Positions 1 to 40,667 of a stretch of 64,000 nt of DNA are shown here, one piece after another; the first letter of the stretch is position 1, and each line of letters starts with the position of its first letter. The DNA is from an uncultured Oscillospiraceae bacterium (GTDB taxonomy: Bacteria; Bacillota; Clostridia; Oscillospirales; Oscillospiraceae). Made by a program: the position numbers and the translations under genes. The stretch is from the NCBI GenBank assembly GCA_947629915.1, contig CANRFN010000016.1, positions 1 through 64,000 on the forward strand, read 5' to 3'. The notes below the pieces were generated by a model. The model worked only from the letters and a program-made list of their open reading frames with translations, made no database searches and was not told the origin of the DNA.

Positions 1-320
1 TGCTATTTGCGGGTACTGCTGCCGCAAAGCGGCTGGATGAATCAGAGTATTATTATATCCCGGACAGCTCTTTGGGGATAGGGCAAATTGACGATGGAAG
101 CCACTCGGAATGGGTTCGCAATCCCGATTATCTGAAGGGAACAGAACGTCGCAGTTATGAAATCGCCTATGAAGTGAACCCGGGGGGTCAATCGTTACAG
201 CTCAGCGGAATGCTGAGGGAACCTGCCCGTTATACGGAGATGTTCTCGGCCTCGTGCGTGTGGATCATCGTATTCTGCGTCTGCGGCCTGGCCCTGTTTC
301 GGCGCAAGGACTTGAAGTGA
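1..320 (+). CDS. ABC-2 type permease, C-terminal part (gene begins before the window)
   Basis: The reading frame is open from base 3 to a TGA at 318-320 with no stop, so this is the 3' end of a gene that starts outside the window. It ends with a hydrophobic helix and the tail LFRRKDLK. The same tail, and the preceding pattern of an NPDYL motif followed by a short loop, recur in the permeases at 13.1-19.6 kb, so I read it as another member of that ABC-2 permease family. It lies immediately upstream of a histidine kinase gene, an arrangement seen in bacitracin/lantibiotic-type export and sensing loci. The substrate cannot be deduced. Confidence 0.75.
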   Translation, partial: LFAGTAAAKRLDESEYYYIPDSSLGIGQIDDGSHSEWVRNPDYLKGTERRSYEIAYEVNPGGQSLQLSGMLREPARYTEMFSASCVWIIVFCVCGLALFRRKDLK

Positions 321-325
321 GGTAG

Positions 326-766
326 GTGAATCTCATGTTCCCCTGGCTGCTCTGTCTGGCGCTGCAGACTGCGGTGATCGCCCTAGGGGTGAAAACGCGG
401 CTGCTCCAGCGCTCCTTCGATGAGATCGCTAACGGTCTGGCGGAGCGGCTGGACGAGGACACCCACACCCTGTTGTCCCTCTTCATGTGGGACCCCCGGT
501 GGCTGGCCTCTGTACTGAACCGGCAGCTCTGGCAGCTGCGGGCCCGGCGGCTTATCAGAACGGGGGACCGGGAGCTGAAAGAGGCAGTCACCAACATCTC
601 CCACGATTTGCGGACACCCCTCACCGCCATCCGGGGCCATCTGGACCTGCTGGAGCGAGAGGATCTGCCGCCGGAGGCCCGGCGGTATTTGGAGCTGATC
701 GGTGACAGGGCAGAGAGCATGACCCGCCTCACGGAGGGGCTCACGCTGAATGCCAGTATCCGATGA
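326..766 (+). pseudogene. Truncated sensor histidine kinase (HisKA kept, HATPase_c lost)
   Basis: The product has an N-terminal hydrophobic helix (about residues 4-22), a linker, and a clear HisKA H-box, ISHDLRTPLTAIRGHLDLLE, carrying the phospho-acceptor histidine. It stops at about 146 residues, just after the second dimerisation helix. The N, G1 and G2 boxes of the ATP-binding domain are absent, so it cannot autophosphorylate. Translation probably starts at GTG 326 or ATG 335, behind GAGGTAGG. The preceding gene is an ABC-2 permease, as in BcrRS/BcrABC-like loci. The coding sequence ends just before a strong hairpin and a convergent operon, which fits a deletion that removed the 3' half. 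It could still act as a partial dimerisation module, but I regard it as broken. Confidence 0.75.
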
Positions 767-774
767 AGATGGAA

Positions 775-815
775 AACAGCCCTATGGCCGCGCTCTCTGC
801 GGCCATAGGGCTGTT
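775..815. terminator. Bidirectional terminator hairpin
   Basis: A perfect 16-bp inverted repeat (775-790 with 800-815) encloses a 9-nt loop. It lies between the convergent kinase remnant and the leftward ABC permease gene. On the minus strand the stem is followed by TTTTCC, and on the plus strand by a T-rich stretch at about 822-834, so it can serve both directions. Confidence 0.75.
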
Positions 816-3349: not shown

Positions 3350-4104
3350 TATCGATCCCCCAGGTAGTAGAGGTAGACGTCCTCCAGGCTGAGCCGGCCG
3401 GTGACGGGCTCAGACACATGGGGGGCAACGCTTTCCAGCAGCGCGGCGGGGCTGTCCATGGCCACCAGCTTCCCCTTCTTCATGAGCAGGATCTTTGCCG
3501 CGATGGTCTCCACGTCTGGCACCACATGGGTGGCCAGCAGCACGATGCGGTCTCGGGCCAGCTGCGCGATGTACTCCCGGGTGCGGATGCGCTCCTGGGG
3601 GTCCAGGCCGGCGGTGGGCTCGTCCAGGATGACCACTGCGGGATCTCCCAACAGGGCCTGGGCCAGTAGTACCCGCTGCCGCATGCCGCCGGAGAAGCCG
3701 GACAGCCGCTTGTGCCGCACATCAGAGAGGTGCAGCGTGGACAGGATCTCCCCGATCTGCGCTCTGGCCTGCCGCTTGGGGATTGCCTTCACCTCTGCCA
3801 TGTAGTAGAGAAAGGTGTCCGCTGTCATGGACTCATAAAAGCCCTGCTGCTGGGGCATATAGCCCAGCTTCTTCTGAAACGCACGGCCCAACAGCAGGAT
3901 GTCCGTGCCGTCAAAGAGGATCTTGCCCTCTGTCCGGGACAGGTTATCTGCGATCAGGTTCATCATGGTGGATTTTCCAGCGCCGTTGGCCCCCAGAATG
4001 CCGTACACCCCCGGCGTGAAGGTGACATCCACATGGTCCAGGGCGGTGAGGTCCCCGTAGCGTTTGGTGAGGCCCCGCAGGGTCAGGGTGTGGGTGTTTT
4101 CCAT
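3349..4104 (-). CDS. ABC transporter ATP-binding protein
   Basis: The 251-residue protein is a standard ABC nucleotide-binding domain of the drug/lantibiotic exporter type. Visible motifs are Walker A GANGAGKST near residue 38, the signature FSGGMRQR, Walker B VVILDEPTAGLDP and the H-loop ATHVV. It powers the large permease encoded directly downstream. The start ATG follows AAAAGGAA and lies 14 nt after the stop of the lipoprotein gene, in the same operon. Confidence 0.92.
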   Translation of the reverse strand: MENTHTLTLRGLTKRYGDLTALDHVDVTFTPGVYGILGANGAGKSTMMNLIADNLSRTEGKILFDGTDILLLGRAFQKKLGYMPQQQGFYESMTADTFLYYMAEVKAIPKRQARAQIGEILSTLHLSDVRHKRLSGFSGGMRQRVLLAQALLGDPAVVILDEPTAGLDPQERIRTREYIAQLARDRIVLLATHVVPDVETIAAKILLMKKGKLVAMDSPAALLESVAPHVSEPVTGRLSLEDVYLYYLGDR

Positions 4105-7057: not shown

Positions 7058-8149
7058 ATGCTAAAGAAGTTCAGCGTGGAGAACTTCAAGAATTTTAAGG
7101 AGAAGCTGATACTGGATTTGTCCTCACCCCATGACTATGCCTTCCACACAGATGTGATATTGGACAACTGCATCACGAAGGGAATTGTGTACGGCCCCAA
7201 CGGGAGCGGGAAGTCCAACCTCGGCCTTGCAATCTTTGACATCGTATTGCACCTTACGGATCAGCAAAAACTGAGTACAAAATATAACCACTATCTCAAT
7301 CTGGCTGCAGAGAAACACTGCGCTCGGTTTGAGTATGCGTTCCGGTTCTCCGGGAGAGATGTGCTCTACAGGTATCAGAAGTCTGCCGGAGACAGATTGA
7401 TTGAGGAACAGCTCTTGATTGACGGGTACGAGGTGCTGCAATACAACTTCCTCAAACAGGAGGGCTTTTCCCGCCTGAAGGGCACGGAGATGCTGCACTT
7501 GTCTGATCGCAGTCCGATCTCACGGGTGAAGTATATCAAGGACAACGCCATCCTGGCCGAGGACGAGGTCAATGAGGCCATTGCTGCGTTTCTCGACTTT
7601 GTGGATCGGATGCTGCTGATTGTTCCATTGGAAGGTCTGGATTATCAGGTAGGGCTTGAGAGCATTGCAGCTGGTATTATTGAGGGCGGGAAGACGAAAG
7701 CGCTTGAACAATTCCTGCGAACACAGGGGGTGGATTATCAACTCGTTGAGAGAGCAGTGGATGGGCGGAAGGCGCTGTACTGTGCCTTTGGGGACAAAGA
7801 GATTGGCTTGTTTCAGATTGCCTCCTCGGGGACCATGGCACTGGCGCAGTTTTATCACTGGTATAGCAGGCTGCAAGATGTGTCGCTTGTCTTTGTGGAT
7901 GACTTTGATGCCTTCTATCGTGTTGCACTTGCTTCAGATTTGGTCCGGCTCCTGCGGGACTTGAGGCATACCCAGGTCCTTCTGACAACCCACACCACTG
8001 ACTTGATGACCAATGACCTGCTGCGGCCGGACTGCTATTTCTTGCTGAAGGATCACCAAATTGCGCCGATCTCGTCCTTGACGGACAAAGAACTCAGACA
8101 AGAGCACAATCTTCAGAGGATGTACAAGGCCGGCGCTTTTTCGCGCTAG
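7058..8149 (+). CDS. AAA/OLD-type ATPase, candidate defence protein
   Basis: The 363-residue protein starts MLKKFSVENFKNF, the typical opening of SMC/RecF-like AAA_15/AAA_21 ATPases. Walker A is YGPNGSGKSN near residue 48, an ABC-like signature ASSGTMALAQF follows, Walker B is LVFVDDFDAFY, and the switch histidine lies in LLTTHTTDL. No TOPRIM nuclease domain is present, so it is shorter than OLD nucleases. Such stand-alone ATPases occur in abortive-infection systems, but the usual RloB or nuclease partner is absent here. It has a private strong promoter and a terminator-like hairpin downstream. A defence role is inference from family and setting. Confidence 0.75.
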   Translation: MLKKFSVENFKNFKEKLILDLSSPHDYAFHTDVILDNCITKGIVYGPNGSGKSNLGLAIFDIVLHLTDQQKLSTKYNHYLNLAAEKHCARFEYAFRFSGRDVLYRYQKSAGDRLIEEQLLIDGYEVLQYNFLKQEGFSRLKGTEMLHLSDRSPISRVKYIKDNAILAEDEVNEAIAAFLDFVDRMLLIVPLEGLDYQVGLESIAAGIIEGGKTKALEQFLRTQGVDYQLVERAVDGRKALYCAFGDKEIGLFQIASSGTMALAQFYHWYSRLQDVSLVFVDDFDAFYRVALASDLVRLLRDLRHTQVLLTTHTTDLMTNDLLRPDCYFLLKDHQIAPISSLTDKELRQEHNLQRMYKAGAFSR

Positions 8150-8842: not shown

Positions 8843-9334
8843 TCAGCGCCTTTTCCGTTTCCGCTTCTGCGGATGCACATGCTGGATTCTCGGTTTTGGC
8901 TTCGGCGTCACAAAGGGCAGCAGCTGCTTGCTCACTTCGAACCCTTTGAAATCAGCAGTGGTGTACACTGGGTTGAATACAATGCCGCCAATGACATCGC
9001 GCCTCACGACATCGTCCAGCTCTTCCACGCAGCCAAAGCCCTGAAGAGACATCGCAGTCAGGCCAGGAATCATCCTGCCGATGCCAGGCGTCCGGCTGAA
9101 CGCGAGAAAGTGCTCGAACGATGTGAAGAGAATGAAGTAGCGATAGCCTCCAATCGGCAGGAAAAGCTGCTTGACGGAGTTTCTGTCTAAGGGATCCGGC
9201 AGAACGGCACACAGCAGTTCGTTATTCTCTTCGTAGCCCTGCTTCAAAGCCGCCACAACGGCCTCCAGGGCCTTCTCGTGATCCGGCTCTGAGACTGCGG
9301 TGTCCAGACTTTTCCAGAACTCTTCTTTTGTCAT
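8843..9334 (-). CDS. SseB-domain protein, array copy 1
   Basis: The 163-residue product starts at ATG 9334 behind AAAGGAGAG. It has the pattern shared by the whole array: an N-terminal helix (LWxxLDxAV-like), a helix of about 20 residues, LLCAVLPDP, a strand YFILFTS, a helix, then VIGGIVFNPVY, as in the SseB N-terminal domain family. The C-terminus differs from its sisters in ending with a very basic tail (HPQKRKRKRR). Family function is poorly known (named after enhanced serine sensitivity in E. coli). It is the last gene of the leftward array. Confidence 0.65.
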   Translation of the reverse strand: MTKEEFWKSLDTAVSEPDHEKALEAVVAALKQGYEENNELLCAVLPDPLDRNSVKQLFLPIGGYRYFILFTSFEHFLAFSRTPGIGRMIPGLTAMSLQGFGCVEELDDVVRRDVIGGIVFNPVYTTADFKGFEVSKQLLPFVTPKPKPRIQHVHPQKRKRKRR

Positions 9335-9356
9335 TGATGTCTCTCTCCTTTGGTTG

Positions 9357-9806
9357 TCAGGGGGTGTGCGGGGCAGGGGAATCGTGGGCACCGTGCTTTC
9401 CGAACGGCAGATCAGCCTTTCGGATGAGAAGCCCGGCGTGAAGTTCCATTGTTGTATCAAAGTACGGGTTAAAGGCAAGGCCCTTTACATCTTCCCGACC
9501 GAACATGTCGTCCAGGACATCCCTGGAGAGCAGGCCAGAGAGCCTGAGATCGGGATGCTCTGGCACGTAGAACGCACGGAAGAGCTGCACGTTTGTGAAC
9601 AGAATAAAGTAGCGACGCTTTCCCACATTCAGAAAGGCCTGCTCGCAGAGATGCGGATCTTCGGGATCTGGCTCCGCCGCGCACATGAGGGCCAGGTTCT
9701 CGTCATAGGCCTGCTGGAGAAGGGCGGCAACAGCAGCTTTCGCCATCTTGCGGTCTGGGTTGGAGACGGCCTCATCCAGCTTGTCCCACAGTTCTTCAGG
9801 TTGCAC
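9357..9806 (-). CDS. SseB-domain protein, array copy 2
   Basis: A 149-residue paralogue with a GTG start at 9806 behind GAGGGA. It conserves RRYFILFTNVQLF, VLDDMFGREDVKGLAFNP and the C-terminal LIRKADLPFGK block found in copies 3, 4 and the fragment. It overlaps the 3' end of copy 3 by 11 bases, so the two are translationally linked. Its predicted role is the same as the rest of the array and is unknown. Confidence 0.65.
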   Translation of the reverse strand: MQPEELWDKLDEAVSNPDRKMAKAAVAALLQQAYDENLALMCAAEPDPEDPHLCEQAFLNVGKRRYFILFTNVQLFRAFYVPEHPDLRLSGLLSRDVLDDMFGREDVKGLAFNPYFDTTMELHAGLLIRKADLPFGKHGAHDSPAPHTP

Positions 9807-10284
9807 GATGGATTCCCTCTATCTGCTGATTTCGCCCATTGATTCTGTCTGCACTCTGAAAAGCAGAATACTGCTCTCTTTGCGCTCCAAATGTCAAATC
9901 TGCTTTCTGTATGACGAGTCCGGTACGGACGCCCGTGGGGTTGAACACAATGCCCTGTACGTTCTCCCGGTCTAAGACATCGTCCAGAACGGTTCGGCTC
10001 CACATCCCCAGAAGTTGAGGATTGTACACGTTCTCATATACACTGCGGAACAGATTGAAGTACTTCACCTTTGTGAACACTGCAAAATATCGGCGGTCCT
10101 CCAGGTGGACGAACAACGCGTTACAGGTATGCGCTTCTTCGGGGGCTGATACAGCGGCGCACATGAATGTCAAATCCTCTTGGTAAGCCTGTTGCAGGAG
10201 GGCAACAGTGGCATCTTTTGCCTTCTTGCGGTCCGAAATGGAGACGGCATGATCCAACCGGGACCACAGATCTTCTCGTGTCAT
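9796..10284 (-). CDS. SseB-domain protein, array copy 3
   Basis: A 162-residue paralogue opening MTREDLWSRLDHAV. It shares RRYFAVFTKVKYF, VLDDVLDRENVQGIVFNP and VIQKADLTFG with its neighbours, and then has an extra hydrophilic tail of about 27 residues that runs over the start of copy 2. Variation between copies lies mainly in the tails and in the acidic loop before the FT strand. Confidence 0.65.
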   Translation of the reverse strand: MTREDLWSRLDHAVSISDRKKAKDATVALLQQAYQEDLTFMCAAVSAPEEAHTCNALFVHLEDRRYFAVFTKVKYFNLFRSVYENVYNPQLLGMWSRTVLDDVLDRENVQGIVFNPTGVRTGLVIQKADLTFGAQREQYSAFQSADRINGRNQQIEGIHRAT

Positions 10285-10312
10285 GTTGCATTCCTCATTC
10301 CATTGGTTTCTG

Positions 10313-10747
10313 TCAGGGGGTGGCTGTGGGCGGGTCCTCCGTTGGCTTTGGCAGATCGGATTTCCGCATGATGAACCCGCTTATGCAATCTACATCGTTG
10401 TTGACTGGGTTGATGGTGATACCGTGCAAGGCCTTCCGGCGGTGGATCTCTTCCAGGATCTCTTTGCACCGGATGCCAAGGAGGCTTAGCTTGTACACGC
10501 CAGGCACATCGAATTCGTTGAAGCACGTGGTTTTTGTGAACATCGTGTAATACCGGCGGCTCCCCACATCGATGTACGCCTGGGTGCATTGACCTGGATG
10601 AGTGGGATCCGTGACCCCCGCGCAGAAGAGGCACAGATCCTCCGCACAGGCCTGCTGGAGAAGGCCGGCGATGGCCTCCTTCGCCTTCTTGCGGTCTGGG
10701 ATCAAGACGGCGGCGTCCAACTTGTCCAAAAGTTCTTGTTGCTGCAT
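10313..10747 (-). CDS. SseB-domain protein, array copy 4
   Basis: The start is ATG 10747 (MQQQELLDKLDAAV), chosen by alignment with the sister genes and the GGAAGGGTGA upstream; a TTG further upstream would add unaligned residues. The 144-residue product conserves RRYYTMFTKTTCF, HGITINPVNN and IMRKSDLPKP. Its ribosome binding site overlaps the end of the gene fragment at 10755. Confidence 0.65.
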   Translation of the reverse strand: MQQQELLDKLDAAVLIPDRKKAKEAIAGLLQQACAEDLCLFCAGVTDPTHPGQCTQAYIDVGSRRYYTMFTKTTCFNEFDVPGVYKLSLLGIRCKEILEEIHRRKALHGITINPVNNDVDCISGFIMRKSDLPKPTEDPPTATP

Positions 10748-10754
10748 ACTCACT

Positions 10755-10930
10755 TCACCCTTCCTGTTTTCCAAACGGCAAGTCCCGTTTGTCGATCATA
10801 AAAGTGCCCACAGTGTCAGGGGCAATGTACTGGGGGTTCAGGGCAACACCGCTCACATCCTCCCGGCCAAACACCTCACCCAGGATGTACCTGGACTCCA
10901 GCACGGCGAGAAAGGCCTCGGGAATACGGG
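10755..10930 (-). pseudogene. 3' fragment of an SseB-domain gene, array copy 5
   Basis: Minus-strand translation here reads VFGREDVSGVALNP, then about 13 residues, MIDKRDLPFGKQEG and a stop at 10755-10757. It aligns with the C-terminal third of copies 2 and 3. Upstream of about 10930 the similarity stops, the N-terminal two thirds are missing and there is no start codon in context. It is a remnant left by recombination between tandem copies and is too short to be found as an open frame. Confidence 0.7.
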
Positions 10931-10961
10931 TGGTCCAACTTGCCGTGGGTGTCTGTCTGCT

Positions 10962-11390
10962 CTACTTCCGGCGCTCCGGCCAATACTGCGTGGTCACCAA
11001 GGAGATCACGTAGCCGGCATCAATGTGTCCGCTGGCGTCCGCAGAGGGATTGATCGCGAGCCCGCCAAAGGAATCCCGCGTCTTCATCTCCTCCAGAAAC
11101 TCCCGGAAGGGCATCGGCATGAGCGATACCTTGCGCTTCCCATAGGCCTTGAGAAACAGGTCGAACTTCTCCGGGCTGGTGAATACCACGTACTGCCGCT
11201 TGCCGTTGATCATGAGGTACACGGCGTTTCCGCTTCCCGGCCGGTTCGGGTCCATCGCAAATGGGCACAGCACCTCAAGGTTCTCTTCCCTGGCCGTCTG
11301 CAGCAGATCGTTTACGGTCCCCACCGTCTTGAAATGGTCCGAGACGGAGACCGCCTCTTCCAGTCTGGACAACAGAACTTCACTTGTCAA
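10962..11390 (-). CDS. SseB-domain protein, array copy 6
   Basis: I place the start at TTG 11390 rather than GTG 11399, because AGGAG lies 8 nt before the TTG and the product then opens (M)TSEVLLSRLEEAV in line with its sisters. The 142-residue protein conserves RQYVVFTSPEKFDLF, LMPMPFREFLEEM and FGGLAINPSAD. Its C-terminus (YVISLVTTQYWPERRK) differs from the LPFGK ending of copies 2-4, and just beyond it lies the copy 5 fragment. Confidence 0.65.
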   Translation of the reverse strand: MTSEVLLSRLEEAVSVSDHFKTVGTVNDLLQTAREENLEVLCPFAMDPNRPGSGNAVYLMINGKRQYVVFTSPEKFDLFLKAYGKRKVSLMPMPFREFLEEMKTRDSFGGLAINPSADASGHIDAGYVISLVTTQYWPERRK

Positions 11391-11419
11391 CGGAAACACT
11401 CCTATCTTTCTTCAGATTC

Positions 11420-11868
11420 CTACAGCAGTGAGTCAAGGCTTTTCCATCCCTTTGCGCCGTTCTTGGTAAGACCCGTCCCTCGCATCTCCACCGCAAAGCC
11501 CTCATCCATCCTTCCCGTCTCATCCACATAGGGGTTGATGGTGAGCCCGCAGAAATCAGGCCGCTGCACAATGCCGTCCAGATACTGCTTGAAGGGGATG
11601 GGCGTGAGCTATACCCCATCTGGCCACGGGTCCAAACGATGGAACCGAGCGGCGCTTGTGAACACGATGAATTGTCGATACGCCCCGTTGGTCAGATAGA
11701 GGCAGTGGGCGTAGTCCGGGTACTCCGGGTCCCTGGACATGGGGCAGAGGACATCCAGATTGTTGCTGTACGCATACCGCAGCAAGGTGTGGACCATTTT
11801 CTCCACATACGCCTATCGGGGCAGGTGATTGCACTCTCCAGCGTGGTCAACAGTTGTTTGCTCGTCAT
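11420..11868 (-). pseudogene. SseB-domain pseudogene, array copy 7 (frameshift plus stop)
   Basis: The gene opens at ATG 11868 (MTSKQLLTTLESAI), close to copy 6. After CPDR the frame changes: restoring one G in AGGCG would give CPDRAYVEKMVHTLLRYA, which aligns with copy 6 without gaps. Further on, the frame meets TAG at 11609-11611 inside the LxPIPF motif (copy 6 has a serine there), then continues to a terminal TAG at 11420. A frameshift and an in-frame stop together mark it as decayed. It is the promoter-proximal copy of the array. Confidence 0.8.
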
Positions 11869-11979: not shown

Positions 11980-12081
11980 CCTGTTTTTCACGGAAGAGGA
12001 GGGACCGAGCGTGCGGAGTGTGCTGCCGGGCTCACATGCATCCCGGTTTCGAGGTGCCAAGTTAAGGGAAGCTTCAGGTTC

Positions 12082-12122
12082 TTAACCAATTCTGGACTCT
12101 TTTCTTAACCGTTTTCTTGACC
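12082..12122 (+). promoter_or_regulatory. Helically phased direct repeats, candidate operator
   Basis: Three copies of CTTRACC (hexamer TTAACC/TTGACC) begin at 12082, 12105 and 12117, at spacings of 23 and 12 bases, just upstream of a TATGAT-like -10 at 12132-12137. Phased direct repeats of this kind are typical binding sites of OmpR/PhoB-class response regulators. They precede the ATPase gene of the multi-permease operon. Confidence 0.5.
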
Positions 12123-12167
12123 ATTCTCTGCTATGATATGCCCATCCTACCGAGGAGGAATGAGACG

Positions 12168-13082
12168 ATGCTGTCAGTATTGACCACCCACGGCCTCACC
12201 AAGCAGTACGGCAAGTTCACTGCGCTGGACGGCCTTACCATGAATGTGCCCCAGGGAGCCATCTATGGCTTTGTGGGGCGAAACGGCGCCGGCAAGACCA
12301 CCTTGATCCGGGTGATCTGCGGCCTGCAGAGGCCCACCGCCGGCACATACAGCCTCTACGGGATAGACAGCCGGGACAAGAAGATCGCCAAGTCCCGCCG
12401 GCGGATGGGGGCGGTGGTGGAGACCCCGTCCATCTACCTGGACATGTCCGCGGAAGACAACCTGAAGCAGCAGTACCGCATCCTGGGGCTGCCGGACTTC
12501 AACGGAATTCAGGAGCTCTTAGCATTGGTTGGCCTGGAGGGCACGGGCAAGAAGAAGGCCCGAAACTTCTCCCTGGGCATGAAGCAGCGGCTGGGCATCG
12601 CCGTGGCCCTGGCCGGGGATCCGGACTTTCTGGTGCTGGACGAGCCCATCAACGGCCTGGATCCCCAGGGCATCATCGAGATCCGGGAGCTGATTCTGAA
12701 GCTGAACCGAGAGCGGCAGATCACCGTGCTGATCTCCAGCCACATCCTGGACGAGCTCAGCCGCCTTGCCACCCACTACGGCTTTATCGATCACGGCCGC
12801 ATGGTAAAGGAGATGAGCGCGGAGGAGCTGGAGGCCGCCGCCCGCAAGTGTATGCGCGTCACGGTGTCCAACGCCGCCGCCCTGGCCCTGGTGCTGGACG
12901 GCATGAGGGCGGAGTACAAGATTCTCTCGGAGAACCAGGCGGACGTGTACGCCAAGCTGAACGTCACCCAGCTCACCCTGGCCCTGGCCAAGCACAACTG
13001 CGAGGTGCTGTCCATCGAGGAGAAGGATGAGAGCCTGGAGAGCTTCTTCATCAACCTGGTGGGAGGAAACGGACATGCGTAA
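12168..13082 (+). CDS. ABC transporter ATP-binding protein (BcrA-like)
   Basis: The 304-residue protein carries Walker A GRNGAGKTT near residue 40, signature SLGMKQRLGIA, Walker B FLVLDEPINGLD and an H-loop histidine in ISSHILDE. A C-terminal extension of about 80 residues after the ABC core matches the BcrA/lantibiotic-immunity type. The start ATG follows GAGGAGG. It is the only ATPase in an operon with eight permease genes and overlaps the first of them by 8 bases. It probably energises several alternative permease dimers, exporting or expelling antimicrobial peptides; that role is inference. Confidence 0.9.
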   Translation: MLSVLTTHGLTKQYGKFTALDGLTMNVPQGAIYGFVGRNGAGKTTLIRVICGLQRPTAGTYSLYGIDSRDKKIAKSRRRMGAVVETPSIYLDMSAEDNLKQQYRILGLPDFNGIQELLALVGLEGTGKKKARNFSLGMKQRLGIAVALAGDPDFLVLDEPINGLDPQGIIEIRELILKLNRERQITVLISSHILDELSRLATHYGFIDHGRMVKEMSAEELEAAARKCMRVTVSNAAALALVLDGMRAEYKILSENQADVYAKLNVTQLTLALAKHNCEVLSIEEKDESLESFFINLVGGNGHA

Positions 13083-13902
13083 TCTGCTGGCAGCCGATTT
13101 TGCCCGGCTGTGGCGGAGCAAGTCTTTGTGGATCAGCGCGGCTTTTCTGGCGATCTTCACCGCCCGCATCGTCCTCAACCTCTGGGAGGAGGCCAGGGAT
13201 TACGACCTCCACGCCAGCCTGGAGAGCCGGTTTTTCACCTATGCGCTGCTCACCGGGCTTCTCATCGCAGTGGTCTGCCCGCTGCTGTTGGGCCCGGAGC
13301 ACGGCGCCGGCTTTCGAAACAAGACCGTCCTGGGATACGGCCGGGCTGCGGTCTATCTCTCGGCGCTGCTCACAGATGCTGCCGGCGCCGTCATCCTCTG
13401 CACCGCAGCTGTAGTCCCCGGGTTAGCCATCGGAATCCCCCTGGGCGGCTTTCGGATGCCTGCCCATGTGGTAGCCCTGATGATCTTCGGGACGATCCTG
13501 CTGTCCCTGGTCTGGAGCGCCCTCTTCACCCTGATCCCGATGCTGCTCTCCAACCGGGCGGTCACCTCAACGGCGGCAATTCTGCTGTCCCTGGGCCTGC
13601 TGCTCTGGGGCTTGAACTGCAACGGCATGCTGGAGCAGCCCCCTACGGTCCAGGGGTACTCGCTCACCGTGAATGGGGAGCTATCACCCGTAGATCCACT
13701 GCCCAACCCGGACTATCTCCCGGAGGGCCCGGAGCGGGAGGCAGTCCAGTTCCAGGCGGACTGTCTCCCCGGCGGGCAGGCATACCAGTACTGGGTGGCG
13801 AACACAGAGCGGCTGCCCAGGAAGCTGATCTCCGCAGCGGTATTATTTATGGGATTCGGGGCGGTCGGCCTGCTGCTCTTCCGCCGGAGAGACCTGAGAT
13901 GA
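13075..13902 (+). CDS. ABC-2 permease, array member 1
   Basis: The ATG at 13075 lies inside the ATPase stop region (overlap of 8 bases). The 275-residue product opens MRNLLAADFARLWRSK, which is the family opening here. It has about six hydrophobic helices, the cytoplasmic motif GFRNKTVLGYGRAAVY after helix 2, and an extracytoplasmic loop with NPDYLPEGP and LPGGQAYQY before the last helix and the tail LFRRRDLR. It forms the membrane part of the exporter with the upstream ATPase. Confidence 0.85.
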   Translation: MRNLLAADFARLWRSKSLWISAAFLAIFTARIVLNLWEEARDYDLHASLESRFFTYALLTGLLIAVVCPLLLGPEHGAGFRNKTVLGYGRAAVYLSALLTDAAGAVILCTAAVVPGLAIGIPLGGFRMPAHVVALMIFGTILLSLVWSALFTLIPMLLSNRAVTSTAAILLSLGLLLWGLNCNGMLEQPPTVQGYSLTVNGELSPVDPLPNPDYLPEGPEREAVQFQADCLPGGQAYQYWVANTERLPRKLISAAVLFMGFGAVGLLLFRRRDLR

Positions 13903-13912
13903 GGTGCAGTCC

Positions 13913-14629
13913 GTGAACAGACTGATGAGCGCCAATGTGTCCCGCCTGATCCGGGACCGGTTCTTCTGGATCTGTCTGGCCTTCATGGGCCTGGTTGTGC
14001 CTCTCGGCAACGGGATCTTCGGCAACTTCTTCTACGCCCTCGCGGCCACGGCGATTCCGGCCGCTTTCTGTCCCCTGTTTCTCGGCGCGGAGTACAGCGA
14101 TGGCACCATGCGCAACAAGATCGCCATGGGATTCAGCCGCTTTACTGTATACCTATCGGACTTTACAGTCTGCGCTGTGGCAGGGCTGCTCTTCAATGCC
14201 GCCTGGTTGGCCGGCTCATTGCTGTTTCACCGGGACAGGGGAATACCGGTTGATCTGTCTGCTCCGTTTCTCCTTTGCACCGCAGGCGTCTGTCTCGCCT
14301 GGACCGCCGTGTTTGCGCTGTTCTCCCTGCTGATCCAGAGCAAGGCCCACGCGGCTGTGATCTGCCTTCTCACCGCTGTGGTGACGTTCCTGCTGGGCAT
14401 CCAGCTCACCGTCATGATCAATGCCGGGGCAGACAAAGCTGCCGCAGGGACCAACACGCCCCTGGCACTGCTGCGGGACCTGCTCCCAGGAGGGCAGGCA
14501 TACCTGCTGGCCATCGGGGACTTCATCACCGAGGGACAGCTGATCCGCTTCCCGCTGTACTCCCTTGGCCTGGCGGTGGCCGTGACTGCAATTGGGCTGT
14601 ATCTCTTTCGGTACAGAGATCTGAAGTGA
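13913..14629 (+). CDS. ABC-2 permease, array member 2
   Basis: I start it at GTG 13913 (VNRLMSANVSRL), which aligns with the openings of its paralogues and follows GAGGTG. The 238-residue protein carries EYSDGTMRNKIAMGFSRFTVY and LLPGGQAYLL. It is the shortest member and lacks much of the external loop. It starts 10 bases after member 1. Confidence 0.83.
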   Translation: MNRLMSANVSRLIRDRFFWICLAFMGLVVPLGNGIFGNFFYALAATAIPAAFCPLFLGAEYSDGTMRNKIAMGFSRFTVYLSDFTVCAVAGLLFNAAWLAGSLLFHRDRGIPVDLSAPFLLCTAGVCLAWTAVFALFSLLIQSKAHAAVICLLTAVVTFLLGIQLTVMINAGADKAAAGTNTPLALLRDLLPGGQAYLLAIGDFITEGQLIRFPLYSLGLAVAVTAIGLYLFRYRDLK

Positions 14630-14641
14630 GGGGATGAGAAC

Positions 14642-15490
14642 ATGGGCAAGCTGCTGAGTGCCAATTATGCCCGATTGCGGCGAGACCGGCTCTTTTGGGG
14701 CCTTGTGGCGGTGATGATCCTCCTGGGCACCTACACGGTGCTCCATCGCTGGTGGATCTATTGGGATCTGCAGCCGGACCGCCTGCCTCAGGCCCGGCTG
14801 TCCTGGTTCGAGCTCTTTGCCTTCATGCAGTACATCGGCCCCGCCATGGCGGTGCTCACCGCCTTTTTCCAGGGCACGGAGTACAGCGATGGCACCCTGC
14901 GCACCAAACTGGTGGTGGGCTGCACCCGATGGGAGGTGTACCTGGCCTTCTTTGTCTCCGTGGCCGGTACCGCCCTGGTGCTGGCTTTCGTCTGTATTGC
15001 CGTGGTGCTCTTCCTGGGGATTCCGCTGCTGGGTCCGCCCCGGCTGGAGAATATTCCCTATCTGCTCGAGGGACTCATCGGGTCTCTTGCCACCTGTCTG
15101 GCCTTCAGCGCCGTGTTCACCGTGGTGGGGATGAACTGCAGCGGCAGCGCCCAAGCCGCCGTGATCTGCCTCGTTAGCCTCATCGCCGCGGAATGGCTGG
15201 TGAACTACCTGGTGAGCGCCCTGCACGCCCCGGCGTTCAACGCCTTCCGAAACTGGGATCCGGCCCTTGGCATCTACACGGAGACCACCGTTCCAAACCC
15301 AGGGTATGTGGGAGGCCTCCGGCGCACGCTCTATCAATTTCTCTATGAGTTTCTGCCCAGTGGACAGGCCAGCCAGTATGCCGCCATGGACAGCATGCAT
15401 CCATCCCGCATGGCTGTCTATGCCGTGCTGTTCTCTGGCCTCTCCACCATGGCTGGATTCTCGCTGTTCCGCCGCAAAGATCTGAAATAG
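14642..15490 (+). CDS. ABC-2 permease, array member 3
   Basis: The 282-residue protein opens MGKLLSANYARLRRDRLFW and has the family signature EYSDGTLRTKLVVGCTRWEVY, in which asparagine of the usual RNK is replaced by threonine. The extracytoplasmic loop ends LPSGQASQY and the tail is LFRRKDLK. The start lies 12 bases after member 2. Confidence 0.85.
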   Translation: MGKLLSANYARLRRDRLFWGLVAVMILLGTYTVLHRWWIYWDLQPDRLPQARLSWFELFAFMQYIGPAMAVLTAFFQGTEYSDGTLRTKLVVGCTRWEVYLAFFVSVAGTALVLAFVCIAVVLFLGIPLLGPPRLENIPYLLEGLIGSLATCLAFSAVFTVVGMNCSGSAQAAVICLVSLIAAEWLVNYLVSALHAPAFNAFRNWDPALGIYTETTVPNPGYVGGLRRTLYQFLYEFLPSGQASQYAAMDSMHPSRMAVYAVLFSGLSTMAGFSLFRRKDLK

Positions 15491-15501
15491 GGAGGTGCCA
15501 T

Positions 15502-16365
15502 ATGGGAAATCTGTTGTCCGCAGACCTGGCCAGGTTGTGGCGCTGTAAGGCGTTCTGGCTGTGCTGTCTGTTCTTTGCCGTCCTGTCCAGCGGCACCCTG
15601 TGGAATGCGTACTGGGTCGGCTCCCAGACCATCGCGGCCAACGCCAGCCTGGAGACCTACATCTTTCCCTTCGCCTTTCTCATCGGTCTGGCGGCAGCTG
15701 TGGTGTGCACCCTGTTCCTGGGCTCGGAGCACGCGGTGGGATTCCGCAACAAGTGCTGTGTGGGGCACAGTAGGGCTGCCGTATACGGTTCGGACTTGGC
15801 AACCTGCTCCATCGCCGCCTTGCTGCTCTGTGCCGCCGCCGTCCTCCCAGGGGGGATCCTGGGGCCGATCCTGTTAGGGGAGGGGTTCGATGCCATGGCT
15901 GTGGTCATGATCGCGGGCATCTGTCTGCTCTCTGTGGCCTATGCCGCCGTCTTTACCGCCCTTGCCATGCTGGTCTCCAGTCAGGCCGCGGCGCCGGTGA
16001 TCGCCCTGCTGCTGTCCCTGCTGCTTCTGGCGGGCGGCTATGCCGGGGTGCAGCGCCTCGCCGAGCCCCCAACCGTTCCCAATCCCGCAGCCGCGCCGCC
16101 CACGGTGGAGGGCGTGGAGCCAGACCGAAATGACACGGTCCCGGAGCGCATTCCCACCCCCAACTATCTCCCGGAAGGGCCGGCCCGTTCCACTGTACAG
16201 TTTCTCACGGACTTTCTCCCCGGCGGCCAATCCTATCAGTACGGGGCTGTGAGCACGGGGACCGCATCGGTACATCTGCCCCAGAAGATGGCGTCCTGTG
16301 CTGCGGTGTTTGCCCTCAGCACTGCGGCGGGCCTGCTGCTCTTCCGCCGCAAAGATCTGAAGTGA
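15502..16365 (+). CDS. ABC-2 permease, array member 4
   Basis: A 287-residue member starting at ATG 15502 behind GGGAGGTG. It carries EHAVGFRNKCCVGHSRAAVY, a proline-rich external loop (about residues 190-225), NYLPEGP and LPGGQSYQY, and ends LFRRKDLK. The hydrophobicity pattern matches member 1, to which it looks closest. Confidence 0.85.
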   Translation: MGNLLSADLARLWRCKAFWLCCLFFAVLSSGTLWNAYWVGSQTIAANASLETYIFPFAFLIGLAAAVVCTLFLGSEHAVGFRNKCCVGHSRAAVYGSDLATCSIAALLLCAAAVLPGGILGPILLGEGFDAMAVVMIAGICLLSVAYAAVFTALAMLVSSQAAAPVIALLLSLLLLAGGYAGVQRLAEPPTVPNPAAAPPTVEGVEPDRNDTVPERIPTPNYLPEGPARSTVQFLTDFLPGGQSYQYGAVSTGTASVHLPQKMASCAAVFALSTAAGLLLFRRKDLK

Positions 16366-16377
16366 GAAGGTGATCGC

Positions 16378-17217
16378 ATACAAAAACTGCTCTCCGCCGG
16401 GTGGCACCGGCTCACCCGCTGCATGGCCCTCTGGTTCGCCTGCGGTGCCACAGCACTCTATGAGGTGTATCAGATCCTGTCCAGTCTCCCCAGGGGAGGG
16501 GACGGCTGGAGTATCTCATACAGTCTGGACGGCCACTTCTTTCAGTTTACCGGCATGGTGAGCCTGGCGTCCGCCCTGGCCTGCGCCTTTTTCATCGGGC
16601 CGGAGTACGGCGATGGCGCCATGCGGAACAAGCTCCTCACAGGCAACAGCCGCTGGAGCGTGTACCTTACAAACCTGGTGCTGTGCGCCGCGGCCTCCCT
16701 GATCGTGTGCCTCTCCGGGATATTGCCCGGGCTGCTGCTGGGCCTGCCGCTGTTGGGGAGCTTCGCAATGGGACTCAGCCGGGCCGCTCTGCTGATCCTG
16801 GGGATTTGCGCCATGGGTATCGCATACACCGCCATCTTCACCCTCACGTCCATGCTCCTCCCAAACCGGGCGGTCTCCCTCACGGCGGCGCTCCTCCTGG
16901 CCCTGGCCTCCCTTACCGTGGCATCCTTTCTCAGCAGCAAACTGGCTGCACTGCCCTTCGAGGACACCGGCACCAGCGTGCTGATGAACGGCGAATTGGT
17001 GGAGATGCCCCTGCGGCCCAATCCGGACTACCTGCCGGACGGGCCGGTGCGCACGCTCTTCACCTTTCTCAACGACTTCCTCCCCGGGGGACAGGCGGGA
17101 CAGTACATCACAGGCAAGGCGGAGCACCCGCTGCGGCTCATCGCCATGGACGGGGCGGTGGTGGGCGCGGCCACTGCCGCCGGCCTCGCGCTCTTCCAGC
17201 GCAGGGATATCCAATAA
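16378..17217 (+). CDS. ABC-2 permease, array member 5, ATA at the start position
   Basis: In frame with the conserved body, the family opening appears as (I)QKLLSAGWHRLTRC, with ATA at 16378-16380 exactly where the sisters have ATG, GTG or TTG, and AAGGTG 5-6 bases before it. The first ATG is at 16423, which would remove the N-terminal amphipathic segment and part of helix 1. From the ATA the protein has 279 residues, like its sisters, with EYGDGAMRNKLLTGNSRWSVY, NPDYLPDGP and LPGGQAGQY. Either AUA is used as a weak start or the gene is poorly expressed. Confidence 0.75.
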   Translation: MQKLLSAGWHRLTRCMALWFACGATALYEVYQILSSLPRGGDGWSISYSLDGHFFQFTGMVSLASALACAFFIGPEYGDGAMRNKLLTGNSRWSVYLTNLVLCAAASLIVCLSGILPGLLLGLPLLGSFAMGLSRAALLILGICAMGIAYTAIFTLTSMLLPNRAVSLTAALLLALASLTVASFLSSKLAALPFEDTGTSVLMNGELVEMPLRPNPDYLPDGPVRTLFTFLNDFLPGGQAGQYITGKAEHPLRLIAMDGAVVGAATAAGLALFQRRDIQ

Positions 17218-17230
17218 GGGGGAGATCACT

Positions 17231-18016
17231 TTGAAACATCTGCTGTCGGCGGAGTTCGCCCGGTTTCGGCGCAGCATCTTTCTGTGGGCCTTTCTGCTGC
17301 TGGGTACGGCGTACGGTGTTCTTATGCTGCTCTCGTGGCGGCAGACCAACAGCACCTTTCTCGCCATGGGGGATGAGAGCCGAATCCTCCACCCGGAGGA
17401 CTTTCTCTTTCCCTACACGGACATTCTGAGCTACCTCATCGCCGGGTTTGCCGCCCTGTACCTCTGGCGGGAGTTCTCCTCCGGCGGGGTGCGGAACAAG
17501 ATCGCCCACGGCATCTCCCGGACAGAGGTGTACCTGTCCCTCTGGGCGGCGGTGTCCCTCTGTGTGGTGCTGATGTGCACGCTGGTGCCTGTGGTGAGCC
17601 TGATCTTCGGCCTGCTCTGCTATGGCCCCCTTACGGCCCCTGTCCCCACCCTCCTGATCGCAGGCCTGGGGACGGTGTTCTCCGGCCTGGCCCTGGCCTC
17701 GCTGTTCACCGCCATCGCCGTGGCCCTGGACGGGAGCCCCTTCACGATTGTGGCCTGTGTGGTGCCGGCTGCGGCCATGCAGACCGCCGCCAACAACACC
17801 GCGGTCTATATCCTGGACTGCGAATTCACAGGCATTCGGGATGCCAGGTATGCCTGGTGCCGGTTCTGGTACGGCATCCTGCCCACCGGCCAGCTGATGG
17901 ACTACCGGGGCCTGGACATCTCGCATTTTCTGCCCAACGCGGTGCGCTCCCTGGCCCTCGCCGCCATGTTTGCCGCCATCGGGATACAGATCTTCCGCCG
18001 GCGGGAGCTGAAATAG
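17231..18016 (+). CDS. ABC-2 permease, array member 6
   Basis: A TTG start at 17231 after GGGGGAGAT gives MKHLLSAEFARFRRS, the family opening. The 261-residue product is more divergent: the cytoplasmic motif is EFSSGGVRNKIAHGISRTEVY and the external loop ends LPTGQLMDY. It ends IFRRRELK. The start lies 14 bases after member 5. Confidence 0.83.
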   Translation: MKHLLSAEFARFRRSIFLWAFLLLGTAYGVLMLLSWRQTNSTFLAMGDESRILHPEDFLFPYTDILSYLIAGFAALYLWREFSSGGVRNKIAHGISRTEVYLSLWAAVSLCVVLMCTLVPVVSLIFGLLCYGPLTAPVPTLLIAGLGTVFSGLALASLFTAIAVALDGSPFTIVACVVPAAAMQTAANNTAVYILDCEFTGIRDARYAWCRFWYGILPTGQLMDYRGLDISHFLPNAVRSLALAAMFAAIGIQIFRRRELK

Positions 18017-18026
18017 GGGGAGCGCC

Positions 18027-18824
18027 ATGTGGAATCTGCTGCAGGCCAACATCGCCCGGCTGCGGAAGAGCTGGGTGTTCTGGCTCTGTGCTGCGGTCCT
18101 GGTGTATTTTGCCTGGGATCGTGGGATGTACGAGATGGCATTCCGCCTGAACATGGGGCAGAATACCGTCTGGGACCGCTGGTCTTTCACGCTGTTCGGG
18201 CGGGTCTGGAATCTGCTGCCCCTGGTGGCAACGGTGTTTGCCGCGCTGTTTCTCGGCGGCGAGTACGATGGCAGTGCCATCCGCAACAAGCTGATACCGG
18301 GTCACGGCCGAGGTGCGGTGTACTGCGCCGCCATGCTCACCGTGATCCTGGGGATCCTCCTGCTGTTCCTGCTCTACACCGGCGGGACAGCCGTGTTCCT
18401 GTGGGCGGCCTATGGTCCATTTCCGGACTATCCCTGGGCGGACGCCGGGGCAGAGCCAATCGGCCGCATCGTCCTGGAGGACCTGGCGGCCATCCTGGTG
18501 ATGTGGGTGGCCTGGGGTGGGCTGTTCACCGCCATCGGGATGAACTGCCCCGTCCCCGCGGTATCAGTGGTGGTCTCCTTGGGGGTGTATGGGCTGCTCC
18601 TGCTGCTCGGCAACGAGATGGATCCCATCCTGATGCAAAATCAGACCGGGCTCCGGGCCAAGTTGAGCCCCTTCCTGTACAACTTCCTGCCCACTGGCCA
18701 GGGGGATCAGCTGCGAACGGTTCTGAACCACGGCAGATTGGACCTGATCCCGTACGGCCTGCTGTTCACCGTAGTTGTGAACGGCATCGGGGCTTTTGTG
18801 TTCTGCAAGAAAGACATGAGGTGA
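18027..18824 (+). CDS. ABC-2 permease, array member 7
   Basis: The 265-residue product opens MWNLLQANIARLRKSWVFWLC and carries EYDGSAIRNKLIPGHGRGAVY, NFLPTGQGDQL and the tail VFCKKDMR. It is a close duplicate of member 8: openings, the AILVMW helix and the LPTGQGDQLR loop are nearly identical, so this pair arose by a recent tandem duplication. Confidence 0.85.
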   Translation: MWNLLQANIARLRKSWVFWLCAAVLVYFAWDRGMYEMAFRLNMGQNTVWDRWSFTLFGRVWNLLPLVATVFAALFLGGEYDGSAIRNKLIPGHGRGAVYCAAMLTVILGILLLFLLYTGGTAVFLWAAYGPFPDYPWADAGAEPIGRIVLEDLAAILVMWVAWGGLFTAIGMNCPVPAVSVVVSLGVYGLLLLLGNEMDPILMQNQTGLRAKLSPFLYNFLPTGQGDQLRTVLNHGRLDLIPYGLLFTVVVNGIGAFVFCKKDMR

Positions 18825-18830
18825 TGTGCC

Positions 18831-19595
18831 ATGGGGAATCTGTTACGGGCCAACATCGCCCGGCTGCGAAAGAGCTGGGTGTTCTGGCTCTGTGCCATAG
18901 TCCTGGTATTGATGGCCTGTAGGAGCGGGGGAAAGGAGCTGGTGCTCAGCCGGGATCCGGGGTCCAACAGCGCCTGGGACCGCTGGTCTGTGATGCTGTT
19001 TCAGCCGGTGGGTACCACGCTACCCGTGGTATCGGCGGTGTTTTCGGCCCTGTTTCTGGGCGGCGAATACGATGGCAACCCCATCCGCAACAAGCTGATT
19101 CTAGGCCACAGCCGCGCTTCCGTGTACTTTGCCGCCTGGGTCTCGGTCTTCGCCGGGACGATCCTGCTATTCCTGCTGCGCACCGGGATTATGGCCGGGT
19201 TCCTGTATCTGGGGTTTGGCCCCTTCCCGGGAGATCCTCCGGTGCCGGAAGACCTGGCGGCCATCCTGGTGATGTGGCTGGCCTGGAGCGCCCTCTTCAC
19301 CGCCATCGGGATGAATTGCACCGTGCCCGCTGTCTCGGTGGTGCTGTGTCTCGGGGCCTTCGGCTTGCTCCTGATGGTGACCCGCCACTTTGATCCCCTC
19401 TTCCAGCGGAACCAGGTGGGGTTCCGGGCGGTGCTGTGCCCCTTTCTGTACAACTTCCTGCCCACCGGTCAGGGGGATCAGCTGCGGGATGTGGGGTACA
19501 CGGGGGAGGCGCATCTGATCCCGTACAGCCTGCTGTTTGCCGCCATTGGGGGCGGTATTGGAGCGCTGGTGTTCTGCAGGAAGGACAAGCAATGA
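18831..19595 (+). CDS. ABC-2 permease, array member 8
   Basis: The last permease of the array, 254 residues, opens MGNLLRANIARLRKSWVFW and carries EYDGNPIRNKLILGHSRASVY and NFLPTGQGDQLRD. It is paralogous to member 7 with a shorter external loop. The start ATG lies 6 bases after member 7, behind GAGGTGATG. A hairpin follows about 60 bases downstream. Confidence 0.85.
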   Translation: MGNLLRANIARLRKSWVFWLCAIVLVLMACRSGGKELVLSRDPGSNSAWDRWSVMLFQPVGTTLPVVSAVFSALFLGGEYDGNPIRNKLILGHSRASVYFAAWVSVFAGTILLFLLRTGIMAGFLYLGFGPFPGDPPVPEDLAAILVMWLAWSALFTAIGMNCTVPAVSVVLCLGAFGLLLMVTRHFDPLFQRNQVGFRAVLCPFLYNFLPTGQGDQLRDVGYTGEAHLIPYSLLFAAIGGGIGALVFCRKDKQ

Positions 19596-38948: not shown

Positions 38949-39659
38949 ATGTTTGGCTTTAGAACGGTTAGCAGAGAGTTCGCCTTTGCAGGGCAGAGCG
39001 TACAGAACTGCCGTGCAACCAACATGGATCGATATCTGGTGAAAAGCCGCTTGATTGAGGACGGGCCAGTCTATCTTGCAGTGGTGTGCGATGGTGTGGG
39101 CAGCCTTGAACATGGAGATTTTGCCTCCAATGCGGCTGTATGGAAATTGGAGGAATGGTTTGATTCCCTCGAGGACATGAAGAGGATCGGACTCCGGCTT
39201 TATCGCCAGGTTCAGGATATCAGCAATAGCATTGCAATCATGGCGCAGGCCGATAGGAAGCAGACTGCCTCAACATTGTCTGCTCTAATGATTGCAGGTG
39301 GAAGATACTATTTTGTGCAGTCCGGGGATAGCCGTATCTATCTCTACCGGAAGGGAAGCTTTCAGCAGATCACCCAGGATCAGTCCTATCGAGGGATGCT
39401 GACAGGCTACGTGGGGAAAGACAATGCGCAGCCACCCCTGTATGGTGAGGGCAATGAGAATGCAGATGGATATTTGCTGTGTACTGACGGGATCACAAAG
39501 AGGCTGAGTCCTGCATTTCTCCAGGAACAAATGGAGCGCATAACGGTCAAAACACTGGAAAGAGATATGAACGGCATCATCCAGTGTGCGATTGATCAAG
39601 GAGAAACCGATAATATAACACTTGTAATTTTACTGCGGGAAGAGAGAGGTACACGATGA
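38949..39659 (+). CDS. PP2C-family Ser/Thr protein phosphatase
   Basis: From ATG 38949 the product has 236 residues; ATG 38934 is an alternative. PP2C metal-site motifs are present: the aspartate in ATNMDRYLV, VVCDGVGSLEHGD, FVQSGDSRIYLYR, LLCTDGITK and GETDNITLVIL. It should remove phosphate from Ser/Thr residues and has no membrane segment. It heads the Tad locus and overlaps the CpaE-like gene by 4 bases (ATGA). The kinase encoded 13 kb downstream in the same direction is its likely opponent. Confidence 0.88.
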   Translation: MFGFRTVSREFAFAGQSVQNCRATNMDRYLVKSRLIEDGPVYLAVVCDGVGSLEHGDFASNAAVWKLEEWFDSLEDMKRIGLRLYRQVQDISNSIAIMAQADRKQTASTLSALMIAGGRYYFVQSGDSRIYLYRKGSFQQITQDQSYRGMLTGYVGKDNAQPPLYGEGNENADGYLLCTDGITKRLSPAFLQEQMERITVKTLERDMNGIIQCAIDQGETDNITLVILLREERGTR

Positions 39660-40657
39660 GAATTCGCCTTTTGATCGGGATCGCTGACGCGGATTACAGC
39701 AATTTCCTGTCCGATGTACTCATGGACCAATACTCTGAGACATTTGATGTGAGTGTTTGCACGACAGAGACCCGTTTCCTGTCCACAATTGACTCTGGCA
39801 GGATGGATGTTGCTCTGGCAGATGACAGCTTTCTTGATGCACTTGGAAATCACCCAACCAATGTAATGATATTCCGCATCGCAGATAAGCAGAATTCGAA
39901 TATCTCTGAGAACATCCGCAGCATAAAGAAGTACCAAAGGATCTCCAACATCATGAGCACTGTAATTGAACAGTATGCTCGCTATTCCGGGAAGCGGGTG
40001 TCCGATGATTACAGTAAAGCAAAAGTCACGATGGTGTGGTCTCCTGCCGGAGGGACAGGAAAGACTACTGCTGCATTGGCCTATGCTGCAAGATGTGTGG
40101 CGGAAAAGAAAAAGACACTTTACCTCAGCTTGGAAGTCTTCTCAGGGGACCAGGCTTATTTTGCACAGAACGGCAACAGCATTAGCAAGATTTTAAGCGG
40201 TCTTACTGGTGACATCTCGCTCCTGATGCAGAGCATCCGACAGGAAGATATCGGAAGCGGGATTTACTACTTCGAAATGCCGGAGAACTATGATGACATC
40301 GCTGTGCTGCGCGATTCCGAGATGGAAATGTTAATCAGTGCTGCAGCAAACGGCGTGGATGAACTGGTTGTAGACTGCCAGAGTACATTCGACCCAAAAG
40401 TTGCCCGTCTCATGGAGATTGCCGATGCAGTTTTCGTGGTCATCAACGCATCGAAGATAGCACAAATGAAGTGGGAGCAGTTCAAAAGTCAGAACAGCTA
40501 CTATGACTTAATCCGGAATCGCGCCTACTTAGTATGCAATCAGGGGGCAAATCTGGATGCAGAGGATATGGAAGGCAAAATCAACCTTCCTAGGATCAGT
40601 ACCACAGATCCTGTAGCGGTGTACAAGTCACTGTCCACTAACATGGTGGTCGCATAG
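39656..40657 (+). CDS. CpaE/TadZ-like pilus-localising ATPase
   Basis: The 333-residue protein has an N-terminal receiver-like domain of about 110 residues without a clear phospho-acceptor set, then a ParA/MinD-like domain with the deviant Walker A SPAGGTGKTTAAL near residue 130 and LVVDCQS in the Walker B position. TadZ/CpaE proteins place the Tad machine at a chosen site in the membrane. It comes directly before the CpaF gene, as in other Tad loci. Confidence 0.82.
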   Translation: MRIRLLIGIADADYSNFLSDVLMDQYSETFDVSVCTTETRFLSTIDSGRMDVALADDSFLDALGNHPTNVMIFRIADKQNSNISENIRSIKKYQRISNIMSTVIEQYARYSGKRVSDDYSKAKVTMVWSPAGGTGKTTAALAYAARCVAEKKKTLYLSLEVFSGDQAYFAQNGNSISKILSGLTGDISLLMQSIRQEDIGSGIYYFEMPENYDDIAVLRDSEMEMLISAAANGVDELVVDCQSTFDPKVARLMEIADAVFVVINASKIAQMKWEQFKSQNSYYDLIRNRAYLVCNQGANLDAEDMEGKINLPRISTTDPVAVYKSLSTNMVVA

Positions 40658-40667
40658 GAGAGTTTGT

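Follow-up and report, generated by a model that had tools for sequence, protein, structure and literature searches.

How can a single ATPase serve eight permeases, and what could so large a set be for? The question is raised by a gene cluster in a 64,000-nucleotide stretch of DNA from an uncultured Oscillospiraceae bacterium (positions 1 to 64,000 of contig CANRFN010000016.1, assembly GCA_947629915.1; hereafter the window), in which the gene for an ATP-binding cassette (ABC) ATPase is followed by eight permease genes in tandem. Lantibiotic-type exporters are commonly viewed as one ATPase with a fixed permease pair. The reading that we favour, with a probability of roughly 0.55, is that the cluster would encode an exporter of envelope-active peptides akin to the Cpr and LanFEG systems, in which a shared ATPase may energise several permease pairs exchanged as cassettes.

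One ATPase and eight intact permeases

The nine genes of the array are listed below; L035 designates the corresponding locus of a second species, to which the ratios of nonsynonymous to synonymous substitution rates (dN/dS) refer, and the subfamilies are those of the tree described further on.

12168..13082, + strand: ABC ATPase of 304 amino acids (aa), the cluster's sole ATPase; PF00005 match, E value 9.7e-30, 104.4 bits (cut-off 25)
13075..13902, + strand: permease p1, subfamily A, sister of p4 in the tree; 82% identity with its L035 orthologue; dN/dS 0.18
13913..14629, + strand: permease p2, short (238 aa), GTG start; 82% identity with L035_2 and 76% with L036_2; dN/dS 0.14
14642..15490, + strand: permease p3, missing in the otherwise collinear L035; near subfamily B (support 98/88), on a long branch
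15502..16365, + strand: permease p4, subfamily A; 81% identity with L035_3; dN/dS 0.18
16378..17217, + strand: permease p5, subfamily A; orthologous to the permease that comes first in sister operons; ATA start; dN/dS 0.23
17231..18016, + strand: permease p6, subfamily B; TTG start, kept in L035
18027..18824, + strand: permease p7, subfamily C (clade support 100/99); 60% identity with p8
18831..19595, + strand: permease p8, subfamily C; paralogue of p7

A first-pass annotation of this DNA had described one ATPase followed by eight homologous permeases, and this is indeed what is found: the ATPase (12168-13082) overlaps p1 by 8 bases, the remaining intergenic gaps measure 6-13 bases, and the eight permease reading frames (13075-19595; 238-287 aa) are all open and intact. 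The two motifs that it had singled out, R(N/T)K-x3-G-x2-R-x2-VY and LP(G/S/T)GQ, are likewise present in all eight, the T variant occurring only in p3. Identity between p1 and the other seven is 26-47%, p7 and p8 form the closest pair, and the paralogues are mostly less than 50% identical, with 19 invariant columns in the full-length alignment of all eight. In a search of the genome, the eight-permease profile recovers each member at E values of 1e-75 to 1e-101, so that the homology is not due to chance. The PF12679 model (ABC2_membrane_2) is matched above its cut-off by p2, p3, p4, p5, p7, and p8, and below it by p1 and p6.

The genome holds only one intact close ATPase, the next best being 47% identical and accompanied by its own permease and two-component system (TCS). 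The permeases of the array have no ATPases of their own elsewhere; the opposite finding had been named by the first-pass annotation as one that would tell against its proposal of a diversified permease set on one ATPase. This proposal is instead supported, both by the single close ATPase and by the fact that the docking parts of the permeases are the most conserved.

Conserved docking parts in a predicted ABC-2 fold

An AlphaFold2 model of p1, based on 98 sequences, reached a predicted local distance difference test score of 96.1 and a predicted template modelling score of 0.91. It predicts an N-terminal helix (residues 2-14), six long helices, read as transmembrane (TM) helices TM1-TM6, a short helix (79-85) past TM2, and, between TM5 and TM6, an outer domain that comprises a hairpin and two short helices interpreted as re-entrant. 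Helix 79-85 is taken as the coupling helix and contains the start of the R(N/T)K-x3-G-x2-R-x2-VY motif; LPGGQ lies between the two short outer helices. In ABC-2 exporters, the coupling helix is the docking site for the ATPase. Across the eight paralogues, identity is highest in the N-helix (55%), followed by the coupling region (48%) and the 4-residue C-terminus (46%), and is 13-36% elsewhere; conservation of the N-helix and coupling region fits one shared ATPase.

The solved folds nearest to p1 are NosY and PmtD, followed by ABCG exporters, all being weak matches with none at an E value below 0.001; compared with PmtCD and NosFY (PDB 6xjh and 7o0y), the query TM-score is 0.62-0.66 at 10-16% sequence identity, and a sequence search of the PDB gave no match. 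As modelled, p1 has the six-TM fold features of the ABC-2, or type V, exporter class, namely an N-terminal amphipathic helix, a coupling helix, and re-entrant outer helices, and the separate ATPase with an ABC domain (PF00005) is present as well. External loops, which had been described as variable, do vary among the paralogues, mainly in length (external loops EL1, EL2, and EL3), but TM1 and TM5 vary equally.

Permease number among relatives

The loci named here are the best 80 of 565 matches to the ATPase query and are biased towards near kin. From their sequences, the standard layout is a response regulator, the ATPase, one to five permeases, and a histidine kinase, as in Cpr or LanFEG systems, with the regulator upstream and the kinase downstream in 69 of these 80 relatives. 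Most have few permeases: one in 36 loci, two in 27, three in 13, four in 3, and five in a single locus. Within the genus, matching permeases occur in 22 of 42 genomes (window genome included), with one to four in each and eight in the window genome, and no other genome of an order-wide sample of 394 has more than four, up to six candidates having been scored per genome, which would under-count very large arrays. Eight is the highest permease count found among the loci and genomes compared, as against a usual number of one to three. With either p3 or the eight-permease alignment as query, a conserved-stretch search of named genomes gave no matches.

The closest relatives are metagenome-assembled genomes of Oscillospiraceae labelled ‘Lapin’, which we take to mean rabbit gut. 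The assembly of the window genome comprises 5.78 Mb, versus 1.7-3.8 Mb for most of the genus genomes compared. It also contains a complete, more distant operon (L033, G000:C3:102414-105849) with regulator, ATPase, one permease, and kinase, the ATPase of which is 47% identical to that of the array.

Cassettes of two permeases

A phylogeny of the eight permeases with their relatives, which the first-pass annotation had called for, resolves three subfamilies, with p2 and p3 standing apart. Subfamily A, to which the leading permease of many operons belongs, contains p1 and p4, which pair together (100/98), as well as p5 (100/99); p6 falls in subfamily B, in a clade (100/100) with L038_2, L040_3, L045_2, L046_2, and L103_2; p7 and p8 belong to subfamily C (100/99). 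In turn, p2 groups with L035_2 and L036_2 (100/100), and p3 adjoins B (98/88). Simple tandem duplication of a single gene is rejected as the origin of the array, because p1/p4/p5, p6, and p7/p8 lie in separate supported clades that are common to other genomes. Elsewhere, permeases are ordered A-B-C in L045 and L046, A-X-B-C in L040, and V-B-C in L038; p5-p6-p7/p8 thereby matches an existing trio, with p1-p4 located between this trio and the ATPase.

Two pairs of close loci indicate how such differences may arise. L037 and L038 share about 95% DNA identity, L038 having 1.54 kb extra that corresponds to a B-C permease pair, and L114 and L103 share about 96%, L103 having 1.51 kb extra that again corresponds to a B-C pair; p3, found in the window and not in L035, is a further presence/absence difference. 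The matching segments overlap at the junctions by 43 and 70 bases, in shared permease 3' ends (..FRRKDL, stop codon, ribosome site, ATG), and the C gene of L103 ends with the terminal bases of the first permease, all of which suggests unequal recombination at conserved gene ends. B adjoins C in every locus where the sequence continues past B; C without B is present in L041. Gain or loss of two-permease cassettes as a unit fits the idea that they form functional pairs.

Conservation in a second species

In L035 (genome G051), the ATPase is 95% identical and the order ATPase-p1-p2-p4-p5-p6 is conserved, without p3; the contig ends inside p6, whose first 42 aa are 88% identical at this edge. Identity of p1, p2, p4, and p5 is 74-82%, and dN/dS is 0.105 for the ATPase and 0.14-0.23 for these four permeases (values listed above): all five genes are under purifying selection. 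Decay of most copies in related strains, which the first-pass annotation had named as refuting its proposal, is thus not what the closest relative displays.

Predicted operator boxes and an unlinked two-component system

Two elements were predicted upstream of the ATPase:

12081..12121, + strand: predicted response-regulator operator, with CTTAAC at 12081, a degenerate CTGGAC at 12092, CTTAAC at 12104, and CTTGAC at 12116, at a spacing of 11 or 12 base pairs (bp)
12132..12137, + strand: candidate -10 element TATGAT, extended (TGCTATGAT from 12129), a consensus match only

Upstream of the ATPase, CTTNAC is found at least once in 76 of the 80 regions and at least twice in 66, mostly 11 or 12 bp apart, as compared with about 11% of shuffled control sequences that have even one box. 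The window promoter has three good boxes and one degenerate box, and the exact double box occurs once in the 5.78-Mb genome, at this very promoter. Matches with one mismatch include a decayed sister locus (see below), but a reversed-pattern control gives a similar number, so that only the exact match is informative.

No regulator or kinase is adjacent to the window array, and on this sequence evidence the cluster is one that has lost its own regulator and kinase and kept the operator boxes. An intact regulator and kinase, without a transporter, are encoded on contig C112 and are 83% and 74% identical, respectively, to those of a complete operon in genome G007. The same orphan pair is present in G051 (L127), where the kinase is interrupted by the contig end. 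In 85 of 86 related kinases, a single TM helix precedes the H-box and an outer sensor domain is lacking; the C112 kinase is of this type and therefore probably senses via a partner, perhaps the transporter.

A decayed sister locus

The left edge of the window, which is the start of contig C16, contains two remnants:

3..320, + strand: permease C-terminal fragment at the contig start, recognised by profile match; right-hand part of a decayed ancestral locus
326..802, + strand: histidine-kinase remnant; H-box region kept (HisKA only), ATPase domain gone; 75% identity to residues 1-159 of the G007 kinase; one in-frame TGA

A ninth permease had been reported at this edge. Homologous permease sequence is indeed there, but it covers no more than a permease C-terminus, with a truncated kinase behind it, within a decayed locus, and a functional ninth permease is rejected. 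The end of contig C2 (L032) carries a broken regulator, an ATPase that lacks the Walker A segment and is fused to a permease C-terminus, and then the start of another permease. The end of C2 and the start of C16 probably represent the left and right parts of a single decayed operon of regulator, ATPase, permeases, and kinase.

Proposed mechanism and competing explanations

In the exporter that we favour, one ATPase homodimer would energise several alternative permease dimers within a type V (ABC-2) module. Each permease gene would act as a cassette, with a similar 5' end (ATG and an LL-A-N-type N-helix) and a conserved end made of ..FRRKDLK, the stop codon, and the ribosome site of the next gene; through unequal recombination at these ends, one or two permeases could be gained, lost, or exchanged with the reading frame and translation preserved. 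Docking on the common ATPase would fall to the conserved N-helix and coupling helix, and the varied TM surface and outer domain would set the cargo, probably envelope-acting peptides. The unlinked C112 pair is predicted to activate transcription of the array via the tandem CTTNAC operator.

Several observations weigh against this reading. The best NCBIfam model for the ATPase, the lantibiotic-protection ATPase TIGR03740 (E value 2e-64), scores 217.3 bits, below its cut-off of 309.75. Outer loops give no sign of accelerated evolution between the window species and L035 (regional dN/dS of 0.14 for cytoplasmic parts, 0.19 for TM helices, 0.18 for outer loops, and 0.16 for EL3), so that the elevated loop divergence suggested at first pass is not borne out. 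This comparison covers p1, p2, p4, and p5, since L035 ends within p6. Between p7 and p8, dN/dS is 0.44, and p5 has none of ATG, GTG, or TTG at its start, the codon being ATA versus ATG in the L035 orthologue; p5 may be poorly translated, or ATA may be an assembly error. Together, the p5 start and the p7/p8 ratio suggest that some members may be weakly used, while the C-type gene of L103 is frameshifted, which indicates that cassettes also decay. Lastly, the decayed sister locus is assembled from the presumed adjacency of C2 and C16 across a contig gap.

Some of these points would equally be expected if the copies were mostly redundant, with one or two permeases working and the others tolerated as duplicates for dosage or on their way to decay, as has already happened to the sister locus in the same genome. 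We consider this unlikely: p1, p2, p4, and p5 are retained under selection and in the same order in a second species, the eight frames are open, and paralogues that are mostly less than 50% identical have lasted far beyond the time of neutral decay. The absence of an outer sensor domain from the kinases makes sensing through a membrane partner plausible, and one report describes an interplay of Bce-type transporters with their kinases (PMC3023708); both would suit a fixed higher-order system in which a particular heterodimer transports and the other permeases are accessory or sensory, signalling the ligand to the single-helix kinase. The 36 of 80 relatives that combine a single permease with the same kinase nevertheless argue that extra permeases are not needed for sensing, and the ATPase-docking motif is kept in all eight permeases, which makes such a system very improbable. 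The nature of the cargo is another matter: an ABC-2 fold does not by itself point to a substrate, ABCG exporters of sterols or hormones figure with NosY among the nearest folds, and the lantibiotic subfamily models all score below cut-off. Export of endogenous lipids, cell-envelope precursors, or signals is nonetheless improbable, as the lantibiotic-protection subfamily is the best family for the ATPase and a regulator, a kinase, an ATPase, and small six-helix permeases make up the Cpr-type resistance layout (PMC5786555).

Self-immunity of a lantibiotic producer was also rejected: a LanC-like protein (LANC_like) has no match in the genome, and none of the neighbouring genes scanned is biosynthetic, so that the array is not obviously an immunity system against the cell's own lantibiotic, a conclusion that concerns lantibiotics and not other peptide classes.

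If the favoured exporter is real, gut bacteria would not need a whole new transporter to broaden or adjust their peptide resistance: gain of a permease cassette of 0.75-1.5 kb could suffice. More tentatively, the permeases could form a combinatorial repertoire, a pool that recombines at conserved gene ends and is mixed with one ATPase, in which case the resistance spectrum might evolve by pair swaps, in the manner of cassette arrays known elsewhere, under a sensor pair that has become uncoupled from the array; we hold this as a possibility more than as an expectation. Natural experiments on the substrate conferred by a permease pair are offered by L037/L038 and L103/L114, the two members of each being distinguished by a B-C cassette alone.

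Neighbouring genes

Close to the array, the - strand at 8843-11399 encodes a tandem set of five small paralogues (145-211 aa, 32-49% mutual identity), one of which matches the SseB N-terminal domain PF07179, and a possible further copy lies at 11609-11806. Small-protein paralogues are also found divergently upstream of the ATPase in L035, which indicates that two back-to-back arrays of tandem paralogues are conserved together. Further left, an AAA-type ATPase (7058-8149, + strand) matches the PADLOC candidate defence model PDC-M12A (E value 1e-129) and AbiLi (4e-38), and a second, unrelated ABC transporter (860-4104, - strand) consists of an ATPase (3349-4104) and a putative 829-aa membrane protein without a Pfam match (860-3349). 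On the right, the region 39656-59555 (+ strand) is AT-rich (GC content 0.41-0.52 versus about 0.62) and encodes a Tad-like secretion set (TadZ-like, T2SSE, T2SSF), DUF5702 and WG-repeat proteins, an FHA protein, a protein kinase, and an SLH-domain protein.

Comparison with known systems

In the open literature, with most subscription papers uncovered, no such exporter array was found; the searches for multi-permease exporters yielded only systems of the Cpr type, whose membrane subunits number two or three, next to importers that share an ATPase. Among the latter, MsmK, FhuC, and MceG resemble the window ATPase in that one ATPase serves several membrane transporters (PMC4519317, PMC10147376, PMC9947336), but they act in import or lipid uptake and mostly with separate operons, whereas the window permeases are of the export-type ABC-2 kind and stand in one array. 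In BceAB-type transporters, the single permease has ten helices, a length of about 630-650 aa, and a large outer domain, in contrast to permeases of 238-287 aa here and six helices in the p1 model.

With LanFEG self-immunity systems (NisFEG and others), the likeness lies in the sequence models: TIGR03740 (gallidermin-type) is nearest to the ATPase, and p3 (20.0) and p6 (21.1) weakly match TIGR03733 (MutG), both below its cut-off of 117.2; apart from these sub-threshold scores and the missing LanC-like protein, the window permeases differ in number and sequence. NsrFE1E2G-XRK of Streptococcus mutans likewise combines one ATPase, more than two membrane subunits, and a TCS, but E1 (2 helices) and E2 (4 helices) together make one permease, for 12 helices in total (PMC5786555), whereas each window gene encodes a full-length permease.

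Cpr-type lantibiotic resistance is represented by CprABCK-R of Clostridioides difficile and LcrSR-LctFEG of S. mutans (PMC5786555). These systems have two permeases forming a heterodimer, versus eight in the window and one to five in its relatives, and their kinases have outer sensing loops of 113-117 aa (PMC5786555), unlike the kinases described here. The Cpr-type operon of ATPase, permeases, and TCS recurs in most relatives (69 of 80), while the intact TCS of the window genome is on another contig. The likeness to Cpr extends to a single ABC-2 ATPase, a TCS, and permeases with six helices and about 240-290 aa (PMC5786555), and in C. difficile too the Cpr regulator is encoded away from the transporter (PMC5786555), as in the window genome.

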